A stretch of DNA of 40,762 nucleotides from Treponema sp. GTDB lineage: Bacteria > Spirochaetota > Spirochaetia > Treponematales > Treponemataceae. Made by a program: the position numbers and the translations under genes. The notes below the pieces were generated by a model. The model saw only the letters and a list, made by a program, of their open reading frames with translations. It was not told the DNA's origin and did no database searches. Location: positions 1-40,762 of the forward strand of contig JAILBH010000225.1 of the NCBI GenBank assembly GCA_024681195.1, in the 5' to 3' direction. Every line of letters begins with the position of its first letter. Positions within the stretch are counted from its first letter, which is position 1. Positions 4,208 to 8,559 of this stretch are shown here, piece by piece.

Positions 4208-5422
4208 CTAATTCTTTAAAATTGCATCTATAAGAGTATCGGTCCTGTACCATACTGTACGGGCTTTTCCTTTGTCTATGTAAAGGACGGTTATTATTCC
4301 ATCTGCAGATAATGTCATATCATAAAAAAGATTATCGCTATGATTTACGTCAAAGTGTCTGTGAAGGATTTTCTGAGATTCGTTTTGAATCATTTCTACA
4401 TTAAAGCCGGTTTCGGTCTTAATTATAAAGAATTTCCAGCCGTTATTTGTAACTCCAAGGAAATCATAAGGGATTTTATAGGTAAGCTTGCTGTAATCTA
4501 CTACAATTGACTCCTCATAAGGAGGAATTGCAACCGGTTCTCCGTAAATACCTGTTTCGCAGCTGAGCGGACACAAAAGGGTCTGGGTAAAATTGATTCC
4601 AGACTGAACTTTTGATTCCTCATCAACAAAAGATGTGTAATAATCAACCTTAAGATAAAGCTTATATTCGTTTAAATCCGGAATTACGTTTTCCAGAGTA
4701 ATATAAACTTCGTTTTCTGTATCCAGATTTTCTATAAGCGGTGTATTTTTTGTGCTTATTGGAATCATATATTTTAAAAATCCGTCTACGCCAAACCAGT
4801 AAACAATAAAACCGTCAGAAGAATTGCTTACAACCACCAGTTCATCTTTTTGAGTAGTATAAATCTTTTTAATATGAGGAAATGGAGTTCCACCAGGTCC
4901 CTGCTGACCAATATAATCTACACTTGAACCGTCGCGGCTAATACGCAAAACCGCCTGTGTGTAAAGAATGCCGCCTTCTCCCTGCTCCTGTCTGTTACGT
5001 GGAATTGTACAAACTGCGTAAATACATTTATTTGAATCTAATGCAATCTGGCCCGGGTAATCAAAAGGATAAGAAATTTCATGAAAAATACTTTCCGAAA
5101 GGTCGTCATAGCTTTGAATTATACTGCTTGTACCCGAATCTTCATTATAAAACAGCGAAAGAATATCTCCGTAAGAGTTAAGCTCCATAATTTTTTTAGA
5201 ATATCCGTCAACAATATAGAAAAAGCCGTCTTTCATGGCAATTCCAAGTCTTATATCCCCAATCTGATTAAGATCTGCAACACTTATCTGCTCTTCAAAA
5301 TTCCCATAATCAAGGCTAAAAAGCTCAGTTTCACTAATAGATTGAATTGTATTATTTTTTGTACAGTTAGAAAAACTTATGATAATTATTATTGAAGCCA
5401 AAACAGAAATTAATTTTTTCAT
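4208..5422 (-). CDS. Spirochaete-type lipoprotein, probable beta-propeller
   Basis: The 404-residue protein begins with a lipoprotein signal ending in SFSNC (Cys20), a relaxed lipobox of the spirochaete kind. The mature part has repeating short strands of the form FFYIVDGYSKKIMELNSYGD, typical of NHL/YWTD-like propellers: a hydrophobic strand, a Gly/Asp turn, then another strand. It resembles the LIC_12708-type proteins annotated in Leptospira and Treponema, but I recall that only loosely. It heads the six-gene minus-strand unit. Its ATG has no Shine-Dalgarno sequence; an extended -10 box lies 7 nt upstream, so the mRNA may be leaderless. Confidence 0.7.
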   Translation of the reverse strand: MKKLISVLASIIIIISFSNCTKNNTIQSISETELFSLDYGNFEEQISVADLNQIGDIRLGIAMKDGFFYIVDGYSKKIMELNSYGDILSLFYNEDSGTSSIIQSYDDLSESIFHEISYPFDYPGQIALDSNKCIYAVCTIPRNRQEQGEGGILYTQAVLRISRDGSSVDYIGQQGPGGTPFPHIKKIYTTQKDELVVVSNSSDGFIVYWFGVDGFLKYMIPISTKNTPLIENLDTENEVYITLENVIPDLNEYKLYLKVDYYTSFVDEESKVQSGINFTQTLLCPLSCETGIYGEPVAIPPYEESIVVDYSKLTYKIPYDFLGVTNNGWKFFIIKTETGFNVEMIQNESQKILHRHFDVNHSDNLFYDMTLSADGIITVLYIDKGKARTVWYRTDTLIDAILKN

Positions 5423-5429
5423 ATATATA

Positions 5430-5438
5430 ATTATATCA
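5430..5438 (-). promoter_or_regulatory. Extended -10 promoter for the lipoprotein unit
   Basis: On the minus strand the sequence is TGATATAAT, followed by 7 nt and then the ATG at 5422. A transcription start about 7 nt after the -10 box would fall on the start codon. No Shine-Dalgarno sequence is present. Confidence 0.65.
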
Positions 5439-5476
5439 TGAATATCTGATTACGAAAATATTAAGATAGATTGGTT

Positions 5477-5620
5477 GGGGCGGGACGCAGGAGATATTAA
5501 TTATTCTATAAAAGAAAAGAATGAAGCTATCAGGCGGGTCCCAGCGACGGAGGAAATTAAGGAATCCCCCCATGCCACGAGCTCGGGGGCCCCCCTTAAT
5601 TTCCTCCTGCGTCCCGCCCC
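5477..5620. repeat. GC-rich nested palindrome (family D) upstream of secA
   Basis: This 144-bp GC-rich island sits in the AT-rich gap of 314 bases between 5422 and 5737. The outer arms GGGGCGGGACGCAGGAG (5477-5493) and its exact complement (5604-5620) form a 17-bp perfect inverted repeat. A second left arm, GGAGGAAATTAAGG (5549-5562), is the exact complement of 5594-5607. The two pairings share bases 5604-5607 and cannot both form fully. Inside, CCCCC (5567-5571) faces GGGGG (5585-5589). The ORF that runs through it looks random. The unit ends 5 bp before the secA -35 box. The rest of the gap holds the two flanking promoters. Confidence 0.85.
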
Positions 5621-5625
5621 ACCTG

Positions 5626-5654
5626 TTGATTCATATTCTTATCTTTTTTATAAA
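5626..5654 (+). promoter_or_regulatory. Sigma-70 promoter for secA
   Basis: TTGATT (5626-5631), a 17-nt spacer and TATAAA (5649-5654). The expected transcription start near 5661 gives a leader of about 75 nt before the ATG at 5737, which has AAGGA at 5725-5729 with 7-nt spacing. Confidence 0.6.
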
Positions 5655-5736: not shown

Positions 5737-8559
5737 ATGATTATCGATAAGATTTTAACTGCCATTTTCGGTTCCCAGAATGACCGTGATGTTAAGGCTC
5801 TCAAACCTATTTTGGCTGCAGTAAATGCTAAAGAAGAATGGGCTAAATCACTTCCTGCGGAAGAATATCCTAAACAGACAGAAAGATTCAAAAAGGAACT
5901 TGCCGAAGGTAAAACTCTTGATGATATATTACCGGAAGCTTTTGCTCTTGTACGAGAAGCTTCGCGCCGTATCCGTGGAGAACGACACTTTGATGTTCAG
6001 ATTATGGGTGCCATTAATCTTCATCATGGAAAAATTACCGAAATGAAAACTGGTGAAGGTAAAACTCTTGTTGCAGTTGCGCCATCTTATCTTAATGCAC
6101 TTACAGGAAAAGGTGTTCATGTAGTAACTGTAAACGACTACCTTGCAGAACGCGACGCAAACACAATGCGTCCTATTTTTGAATACCTTGGTATGACTGT
6201 TGGCTCAATTCTTTCTGATATGGATAATGATGCACGCCGACTTGCTTATGCCTGCGATGTTACTTACGGTACAAACAATGAATTTGGTTTTGATTATCTG
6301 CGCGATAACATGAAAATTGACCTTAAAGAAAAGGTTCAAAGAGGCTTTAATTACTGTATTGTCGACGAAATTGACTCTATTTTGATTGATGAAGCCCGAA
6401 CCCCACTCATCATTTCTGGTGCCGGTGAGGATGATACTTACAAATATCACGAAGTAGATAAATATGTAGGCGAACTCAAAGAAGTTGCAAAGGATCCAAA
6501 AACCGGTGAATATCCTGATGAAAGCTTTATGACTCCGGAAGAAAGAGCAGCTATTGAGGGTGACTATACAATTGATGAAAAATCTAAACGAGTATCTTTT
6601 ACTGCAAAAGGTATGCTCCATATAAATGAAATTCTTCATAAGCACAATCTTATTAAGGGTGCTCTTGAAGACGAAGAAAACTTTGAATATACACACTACT
6701 TTACACAGGCTTTGCGTGCACACCTTTTATTCCACAACGATGTAGATTACATGGTTCGCGATGGTCAGGTTCAGATTATTGATGAATTTACAGGACGTGT
6801 TCTTGAAGGCCGCCGTTATTCAGACGGACTTCATCAGGCTATTGAAGCAAAGGAACATATCCGCATTGCCCAGCGTAACCGAACAATGGCTACAATCACC
6901 TTCCAGAACTTCTTCCGTATGTACGATAAACTTTCTGGTATGACCGGTACTGCCGCAACAGAAGCAGTTGAATTTAATAAGATTTACGGTCTTGATGTAG
7001 TTGCAATTCCTACAAATGTTCCGGTTGCCCGTAAAGATGAAAATGACGAAGTTTACCTGAACGAACAGGATAAATGGGAAGCAATTGCCCGTGAAATTAA
7101 AGAAGCTCATGATAAAGGCCAGCCGGTTCTGGTTGGTACAGTTTCTGTAGAAAAATCTGAAATTCTTGATGCGCTTCTTACACGCAAAGGAATCCGTCAC
7201 GAAGTATTAAATGCCAAAAACCATGCCCGTGAAGCTTTGATTATTGCCGAAGCCGGTGCAAAAGGCGCCGTAACAATTGCAACAAACATGGCTGGTCGTG
7301 GTACCGATATTAAGCTTGGTGGTAACCCTGAATTCCGTGCAAGAAAGCGTGCCGGAACAAATGCTACTGCGGAACAGTATCAGGCAGCACTTGCAATAGA
7401 AAAAGAAAACTGGGAAAAAGATTACGAAGAAGTTCGTGCCCTTGGTGGTCTTTATGTAATTGGTTCTGAGCGTCATGAATCACGCCGTATTGATAACCAG
7501 CTGCGTGGACGTTCTGGACGACAGGGTGACCCTGGCCGTTCAAAGTTCTTTATTTCTATGGATGATGACCTTATGCGACTCTTTGGTGGAGAACGCATGA
7601 AGGTTATGATGAGCAGAATCGGTATGCAGCCTGGAGAACCAATTGACCATCCATGGCTCAATAAGGGAATTGAAAACGCACAGAAAAAAGTTGAAGACCG
7701 CAACTTTGAAATTCGTAAACACCTGCTTGATTATGATGATGTTTTGAATGAGCAGCGTTCTGTAATTTACGAACAGAGAGACGCTCTTCTTGCAGATGAT
7801 AATCTTAGTGCCCGCGTAATGAATAACGCAATAGATCTCGTTAACGACTTATTTGAGCAGTATGAAGCTGACTCAAAAAGAAACAAGCACGATAATTCTG
7901 CATTCCTTGAACTTAATGAGGCTATTCGAACAAACTTCGGACTTCAGCTTCCTGCAGAACGCATGACACGTGATGCAGTAATTGCAGAGCTTCAGAATGA
8001 TATTACAGAAAAAGAAGCACTTGCAGGTAAAGAAAACTTTAACATGTTTATTCGTTATCAGTATGTGCAGATTATTGACCGCAAGTGGCTGGATCAGCTG
8101 GAAGCTCTTGAAGGACTTAGAGAAGCAGTTAGTCTTCGTTCTTACGGTTCAAAGAATCCTCTTACAGAATATAAGATTGACGGCTTTAATATTTTTGATG
8201 AAATGATGAGCACAATCCGTACAACTGTAATGTCGCGTGTATTTAAGGTAAAGATTCAACTTAGTCCGGAAGCAGCAGAACACCGTCGCCAGATGATGGC
8301 TGCACAAAACGCACAGATGAATGCTCAGCATAACGATGCACAGCAGTTTGGTGCTGCAATTGCTGCAAATAATGCCGAAAGAAGTGCTCAGTCAACCTTT
8401 AGTGGAGACACAGCACGCAGACAGGCAGCAAGTGGTGCTATGCAGTCAAGAACTCAGAGCGCAAATGCAACAGTAAGACGCACTATGCCAAAGGTTGGAC
8501 GCAACGATCCTTGTCCATGTGGCAGCGGAAAGAAATACAAGCAGTGTTGTGGCAGATAA
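5737..8559 (+). CDS. secA: Protein translocase subunit SecA
   Basis: SecA is the ATPase that pushes preproteins through SecYEG. The 940-residue protein has all expected parts: Walker [12 protein letters not shown] (about residues 103-113), Walker [21 protein letters not shown] after residue 200, the preprotein cross-linking region, motifs [14 protein letters not shown] and MTGTAATE, the second motor domain with [13 protein letters not shown] and [13 protein letters not shown], the helical scaffold/wing region, a Gln/Ala-rich linker, and a C-terminal zinc finger [13 protein letters not shown] that binds SecB or ribosomes. The length is a little above E. coli SecA (901). It has its own promoter and a clear AAGGA site. 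It is monocistronic: the next gene, a signal peptidase, converges from the other strand, with a short repeat between them. Confidence 0.98.

Follow-up and report, generated by a model that had tools for sequence, protein, structure and literature searches.

A GC-rich palindrome beside secA is very likely a member of a mobile repeat family in Treponema

The window analysed here is a 40,762-nucleotide stretch of a Treponema sp. genome (assembly GCA_024681195.1, contig JAILBH010000225.1), in which the gap between secA and a divergent gene houses a nested GC-rich palindrome. Our analysis indicates that this palindrome is not a single-site regulatory element. It belongs to a dispersed, patchy and non-coding repeat family of Treponema-like bacteria, one that is very likely mobile. 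Members of the family have a hairpin core, and the inverted arms around the core are mostly site-specific and decay outward over tens of nucleotides. The nested arms at secA fit two generations of one element better than they fit a designed switch. Handles beginning with G, C and L denote our genomes, contigs and loci.

A dispersed repeat family

The complete core in the window occupies 5534-5617 on the forward strand (GCGGGTCCCAGCGACGG ... CTCCTGCGTCCCGC). Two further clear copies were found in the same genome, at C108:6906-6991 (77%) and C201:41164-41258 (75%), and a repeated search gave the same three places, its other matches being weak. R1, a covariance model built from 24 copies, matched the window copy at C181:5522-5630 (E 3.7e-19, the window copy itself being one of the 24). 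It gave five matches in this genome at E ≤ 1e-3 and four at 1e-4, and the three clear copies were inspected. A DNA search was positive in 11 of 59 genomes, the window's own included; all 11 are from this genus, and none of the 23 genomes from other genera was positive. R1 matched 89 of 200 genomes of the genus, with at least 19 matches in one genome; these per-genome counts are lower bounds because 19 candidates were scored per genome. Across 291 genomes of the order, 33 were positive and 30 of these are from the same genus. The other three comprise one other genus of the family, with three matches, and two genomes from other families with one putative match each (E 1.9e-7 and 3.0e-5). An earlier note on this sequence had listed a mobile palindrome among its possibilities, and had reasoned that absence from the rest of the genome together with conservation at the site in all relatives would point to a regulatory site instead. 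The search for further copies that it proposed bears out the first idea, as does the empty gap of five near relatives described below, and neither half of the second holds.

Rfam gave no match in the window at curated scores, and the loci of four other copies gave sub-threshold matches only. The L109 copy was unmatched in plasmid and phage collections at E 0.01. Among viral contigs, 28 carry the 15-nt 5' end, and none has the paired 3' end by pattern search. No description of this repeat family was found among the titles and abstracts listed in a literature search that left most subscription journals outside its coverage.

To describe the core, 102 copies were gathered by a pattern on its ends, so that the constancy of the ends is partly built in; the set includes related copies, which are not independent. 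The core is about 70-120 nt long, starts with GCGGGTCCCAGCGACGG and closes with CCTGCGTCCCAC, with few variants. Its 5' end reads GGGTCCCAGCGACGG in 57 copies, GGGTCCCAGCGACGA in 16, GGGTCCCAGCAACGG in 11 and GGGCCCCAGCGACGG in 8, the remainder being other variants. The fold has a GGG/CCC foot, a 5-nt TCCCA bulge, a short helix that we read as GCR/TGC, and then the inner stem. The asymmetric internal loop is conserved; judged by the 5' ends of the 102 copies and the pairing in the fold, its 5' strand in the window (TCCCA bulge, GCG, AC) lies at 5539-5548 on the forward strand. The inner stem and the tip differ in sequence and length among aligned copies.

Several cores are modified. In some, part of the apical region is substituted by small hairpins whose tips are alike (similar to CTTTATACCGTCG) and whose stems vary, as at L113 and, in G076, at C1:653958-654049, C1:311463-311578 and C9:86997-87090. 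A variant copy at C1:752587 of G076 hardly differs at its 5' end, whereas its 3' end is altered (TGCACATCCCAC); it has a different inner stem and arms GGTAATTTG/CAAATTACC. At L114 (G010:C133) the core is interrupted by DNA in which an open reading frame (ORF) begins. By eye, we take this ORF to resemble an IS256-type transposase.

The palindrome at secA

The gene to the right of the palindrome (5737-8559, forward strand) matches Pfam SecA_DEAD (1.2e-126) and other SecA families. The divergent gene from the ORF list (4208-5422, reverse strand) encodes a 404-residue product for which a Pfam search gave no match. The earlier note described a right arm able to pair with either a distal or a proximal arm. 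Both pairings are exact. The distal one spans 18 bp (5476-5493 with 5604-5621) and not the 17 first given, and the proximal one 14 bp (5549-5562 with 5594-5607); the four bases said to be common to the two are 5604-5607. Across the window, no other exact inverted repeat reaches 14 bp at spacings up to 150, and the longest inverted repeat in 30 block shuffles of the window was 15. The high GC content was rightly noted: 82% at 5477-5493 and 66% at 5531-5621, compared with 19% and 14% in the flanks and 37% in the window. The palindrome folds better than 200 of 200 shuffles, both as DNA (z -5.1) and as RNA (z -5.9).

The proximal arm (5549-5562, forward strand) is the inner stem of the core. The C5/G5 stem reported inside the palindrome is also present, and forms the apical part of the core as a C-run, a variable loop and a G-run (5565-5589, forward strand), a region of varying length and sequence among aligned copies. 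The two named arms hardly compete: the minimum-energy fold keeps the proximal stem and most of the distal stem simultaneously, so the stems are not mutually exclusive. Folded as RNA, the minimum-energy structure is at -77.1 kcal/mol; forcing all 18 distal pairs gives -76.5 kcal/mol and forcing the core's own 5' end gives -53.1 kcal/mol. In these models it is the 5' end of the core itself, near 5535-5548, that is predicted to compete with the distal arm.

The distal arm (5476-5493, reverse strand) corresponds, in reverse complement, to the 3' end of the core together with 4 nt of its flank. Genome G131 carries in its secA gap a complete core copy in the opposite orientation, and window positions 5416-5510, distal arm included, align directly with the left end and flank of that copy (score 84, compared with a maximum of 39 in 200 shuffles). 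This alignment suggests that 5476-5493 is most likely the remnant of an older copy in the opposite orientation, of which the right end survives. Judged by sequence, the complete core at 5534-5617 would then most likely be a copy now reversed relative to the older one. An AT-rich spacer (5494-5533), with a weak outer arm GAATGAA..CAGG inside it by sequence and folding, separates the remnant from the complete copy. The right flank (5618-5639) contains a decayed outer arm (CCTG..GATTCATATTC).

Presence and absence among relatives

A secA match was found in 184 of 196 genomes, and 30 loci were fetched. The core is present in the window and in G131. The gap of G025 (L237) holds a related but different GC-rich hairpin with arms AAAAAAAATGGC/GCCATTTTTTTT and a TCCCAGC-like end. 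The other 27 loci lack the core motif in the gap, as searched with 8-letter motifs; two of them have a motif more than 1.2 kb upstream, and the neighbouring gene differs in several. By eye, G127, G209, G018, G132 and G136 have the same divergent gene and an empty gap. This comparison also bears on whether the palindrome acts at secA as a promoter insulator or a protein-bound cruciform, two other suggestions of the earlier note. Its place between divergent genes and its strong predicted fold would suit such a role. The near relatives manage the same gene pair without it, and G025 has a different hairpin in the slot. The sequence common to the relatives upstream of secA is a separate block: TAGTA occurs within 150 nt upstream of secA in 27 of the 30 loci, the window's included, followed by a TATAAT-like box. 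In the window this block (TAGTAGTAAATTT ... TATATT, forward strand) covers 5665 to roughly 5696 and is separated from the palindrome by over 40 bp. The stated distance of 5 bp between palindrome and secA -35 is not supported; our guess is that the note probably took TTGATT at 5627 as the hexamer. We therefore regard the insulator or cruciform as very improbable.

Copies at other sites are similarly patchy. The tmk copy is present in G018 and absent from G131, G132 and G209; the gap of G000 is longer and also without the core. The L357 copy is present in G136 and G018 (98%) and absent from G132 and G000. By eye, G209, G025 and G127 have other hairpin-like DNA in that slot; G131, G143 and G144 were not part of this comparison. 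The L098 copy is found in G018 and G132, and not in G209, G025, G131, G000 or G127. By parsimony on the secA tree, in which G132 joins G018 and G136 at a support of only 0.56, the tmk, L357 and L098 copies are most simply gains of particular lineages. The L165 and L168 copies of G075 are missing from G076, and the L187 slot is nearly empty in G000 (14 bp) and G216 (7 bp). At one slot the core of G210 is in the opposite orientation to those of G060 and G061. Such slots also hold other hairpins, in G014 and G104 and in G143 and G060.

Inverted arms and terminator-like form

The flanks were compared over 100 nt on each side of the 102 copies, with direct and mirror readings of the same flanks as controls. 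Perfect pairing extends outward from the core for 1 to 22 nt, and for at least 10 nt in 54 copies. At 25-85 nt from the core, 27 copies have an inverted similarity above the 99% level found for mismatched pairs; direct similarity passes that level in 3 copies and mirror similarity in 1. At 40-100 nt from the core, the corresponding counts above control are 16, 3 and 0. In two G004 copies, L109 and L111, one and the same 72-nt core stands between quite different arms. Of 12 outer pairs, 10 have changed on both sides, each in 6 to 13 of the 24 copies compared. Three further loci, L406, L423 and L424 (in G104, G060 and G143), have a second 26-nt core (GGCTTC.GCGCTTCGCTTGTGCAGA) that is unrelated to the first; its arms differ per site (10, 17 and 9 bp perfect) in the same architecture as the main family.

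Many arms have the form of a terminator. An A run of at least 5 on the left and a T run of at least 5 on the right, 4-30 nt from the core, occur together in 59 of the 102 copies, compared with none when the test is reversed and one when it is made at 60-86 nt; such a T run is present in 62. By their sequence, the arms of these 59 copies look like bidirectional intrinsic terminators. Gap types were assigned with a codon-based gene finder trained on G076. Of 31 copies from G004, G075, G076 and G023, 13 are in convergent, 12 in tandem and 6 in divergent gaps. The 864 neighbouring gene pairs of the G076 part, taken as background, divide into 105 convergent, 106 divergent and 653 tandem pairs, so convergent gaps are enriched (13/31 vs 105/864, Fisher p 5e-5), and the 6 copies in divergent gaps show no avoidance of these. 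The G076-trained model, not being made for G019, G018 and G010, gave distant neighbours for nine copies from these genomes, which were excluded; restoring them gives 16 convergent, 17 tandem and 7 divergent gaps for all 40. When orthologous sites were merged by hand, 8 of 23 were convergent (p 0.005, or 0.018 against gaps of at least 100 nt). Two copies lie just upstream of tRNA genes, at L002:1694-1766 (Thr-TGT) and L165:4171-4252 (Leu-GAG). The window copy is atypical, as it sits in a divergent gap and has no such tracts. Its longest T run 4-30 nt away is 3, and the absence of long A and T tracts suggests that it is probably no terminator.

The terminator-like form raises the question of which came first. 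A mobile core could have inserted into the loops of pre-existing intrinsic terminators or palindromes, so that the arms are simply the old stems. The tracts, the many sites at gene ends and, by eye, the ordinary-looking long-stem terminators or other hairpins in the same slot of other species are all consistent with this. However, many copies have no loop remnant between core and arm, as the 54 with at least 10 nt of perfect pairing from the core illustrate, and the empty alleles at tmk, L168, L165 and L357 lack such a stem by eye. The inverted similarity at 40-100 nt is also left unexplained. Insertion into existing terminator loops was disfavoured on the missing remnants and the stemless empty alleles, and we consider it rather unlikely.

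Origin of the arms

We propose instead that template switching lengthens the arms of a mobile hairpin, keeps the two arms matched and also turns the core round; this proposal as a whole seems to us about evenly balanced between right and wrong. Once a strong hairpin is present at a site, a stalled DNA polymerase would switch template to the opposite arm. The switch would copy one flank into the other, extending and homogenising the arms, and would sometimes copy the core backwards, producing an inversion. A portion of the inner arm may move along with the core. The flanks being A-rich, mirroring them would often yield bidirectional intrinsic terminators, which would be tolerated at gene ends or favoured there by selection. 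In the case of secA, an older copy would have been inverted and partly duplicated, leaving the nested 18-bp arm and no terminator; a specific regulatory role for this palindrome is not needed. The core could be delivered to new sites by template switching in trans or by some enzyme, both being candidate routes.

The step of arm building through hairpin-driven template switching is the part that we hold with moderate confidence. At tmk, the left and right flanks of the G018 copy can be aligned along some 75 nt, and match exactly for 13 nt in a row. The right flank, inverted, aligns with the native left sequence of the empty G131 allele (score 40, compared with a maximum of 30 in 60 shuffles), so native DNA from one side has seemingly been copied, inverted, to the other side. 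In yeast, one report describes template switching between inverted repeats that homogenises the arms and inverts the spacers (PMC8604942); both signs are observed in the Treponema family.

Several observations weigh against this proposal. At secA, filled slots (G000, G131 and G025) do not follow the secA tree, being mixed with empty ones (G127, G209, G018, G132 and G136), so this slot saw repeated gain or loss; a single ancient insertion there was dropped once the tree was seen. The inverted test at tmk is not reproduced with G132 (score 24, 6 of 60 shuffles as good) or G209 (score 18, 54 of 60). The same comparison with empty relatives is not clearly above shuffles at L168, L165, L357 and secA, which leaves tmk as the sole clear site of five. 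Arms are also reused: G010 copies have in common an arm ..TTGCTCTG/CAGAGCAA.. adjoining the core, two G019 copies and likewise two G031 copies share theirs, and GGACTG or close variants recur in several G004, G075, G076 and G023 copies. Arms can therefore travel with the core. At L188 in G010, a further inverted repeat is seen by eye outside the shared part of the arm. Neither an autonomous partner nor a target duplication was found, and movement within a strain was not observed. Finally, paired arm changes at the orthologous copies L159, L176 and L177 are also expected under selection on a terminator, and a study of intrinsic terminators ascribes paired stem changes to compensatory evolution (PMC5381666).

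Such paired changes, the conserved internal loop and the position of copies after stop codons would suit an immobile structured terminator or RNA element, inherited vertically, whose stems are kept by compensatory mutation. The patchy and in part lineage-limited presence, the opposite orientations at one site and the identical cores of L109 and L111 with different arms in one genome make this difficult to maintain for the entire family. Single old loci may be of this kind; as a general account we find it improbable.

Alternatively, a DDE or other transposase could act in trans on a miniature transposon made up of core and inner arms, the outer arms being added later through template switching. 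The copies are small, non-coding, numerous per genome and have defined ends, and those of G010 have core and inner arms in common. However, in the 1.16 Mb of G076 that were read, each of the eight core 5' ends (at most one mismatch) is followed by a 3' end no more than 120 nt away. A longer, gene-bearing version was thus not seen there, and the ninth, variant G076 copy is likewise short. The transposase distribution test covered Y1 only. Y1_Tnp was matched in 61 of 196 genomes, 20 of which also hold copies (for example G216 and G172), and 69 of the 89 element-bearing genomes lie outside those 61, the two sets being draws of 196 and 200 genomes. No Y1_Tnp match was listed for G000, G004, G010, G014, G018, G019 or G023, each with 5 to 16 R1 matches. 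Mobilisation by a Y1 transposase associated with repetitive extragenic palindromes (REPs), a RAYT, was rejected on this distribution. The miniature transposon in general we judge to be quite unlikely. With a slightly better, though still low, probability, insertion itself writes the inverted copy of the target flank: the core would be added at a 3' end, fold back and prime synthesis on the adjoining flank. If this is true, each insertion bears mirror arms from its own site in place of a direct target duplication, and A-rich DNA can become a bidirectional terminator in one step. Since at least one unrelated core, the 26-nt one, is built alike, such a process could be general to these genomes instead of belonging to a single sequence.

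Comparison with known systems

Short palindromic repeats are common in bacteria, and those that lack a known transposase pose the question of how they spread. A conserved core in changing mirror arms, together with empty alleles in relatives, makes that spread testable by strain comparison and insertion assay. Template switching of the kind we propose, if true, would be a route for terminators to arise out of neutral DNA. It also calls for caution, since paired stem changes can stem from template switching and not solely from selection at the RNA level.

Of the described repeats, miniature inverted-repeat transposable elements are likewise multi-copy, short, non-coding and non-autonomous, with conserved ends; they are also marked by direct target duplications and by terminal inverted repeats in common with an autonomous element. 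For the Treponema family, no direct target duplication or partner transposase was identified; the direct-repeat comparison of the flanks was near background (3 of 102), in a test blind to duplications of 2-3 nt. Yeast mitochondrial GC clusters (PMC4478555) and sponge mitochondrial hairpin elements (PMC2800124) are also short, non-coding, GC-rich intergenic palindromes with a patchy distribution across species. GC clusters are also reported to merge and shuffle, and their amplification mechanism to be debated (PMC4478555). The Treponema family differs from both in being bacterial and in having long inverted repeats in its flanks and a core of the length given above with its conserved asymmetric loop.

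REPs, REPINs and CGTC-tagged REPs are likewise extragenic palindromes, found mostly in unidirectional and convergent gaps close to 3' ends. REPs are described as 20-40 bp long, with stems of 5-13 bp and a terminal tetranucleotide that stays unpaired, and the CGTC type as having no dedicated transposase and as reported from Spirochaetes (PMC3733652). The Treponema core is longer and has neither a terminal GTAG nor an unpaired CGTC tag, and the arms around it mostly change from site to site. GTAG is absent from the hairpin foot, where aligned cores end GCGGG..CCCAC or CCCGC. Nor do the cores have the unpaired CGTC end, 8-9 bp stem and 4-5 nt loop of CGTC-type REPs: CGTC is internal to CCTGCGTCCC, and the inner stem of the window copy is 14 bp. 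Bidirectional intrinsic terminators (PMC5381666) have the same succession of A-tract, stem and T-tract after stop codons and the same paired stem changes. Ordinary terminators have no core conserved across sites and species, and the window copy has no tracts.

Other repeats and neighbouring features

Sequences like GTCATTGCGAG occupy the same type of slot at L397 (G059) and in the region after tmk in L307 (G131). We take these to resemble CGTC-type REPs. Another dispersed repeat, about 140 nt long, lies at L187:4355-4495 and has matches in G025, G136, G209, G127, G132 and G000. The closest named relatives of the window's SecA are from uncultured Treponema and Spirochaetaceae (71-76%), one of them from goat reticulum; the term Treponema-like is based on these matches. 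A motif like GGTCCCTGAGCCTGTCGAAGGG has six sites in the window, with at most 3 mismatches in 25, at 479 (+), 471 (-), 11126 (+), 11052 (-), 13083 (-) and 30245 (-). It is also present at L186:3458-3482 and recurs in at least 7 of the 9 genomes searched.
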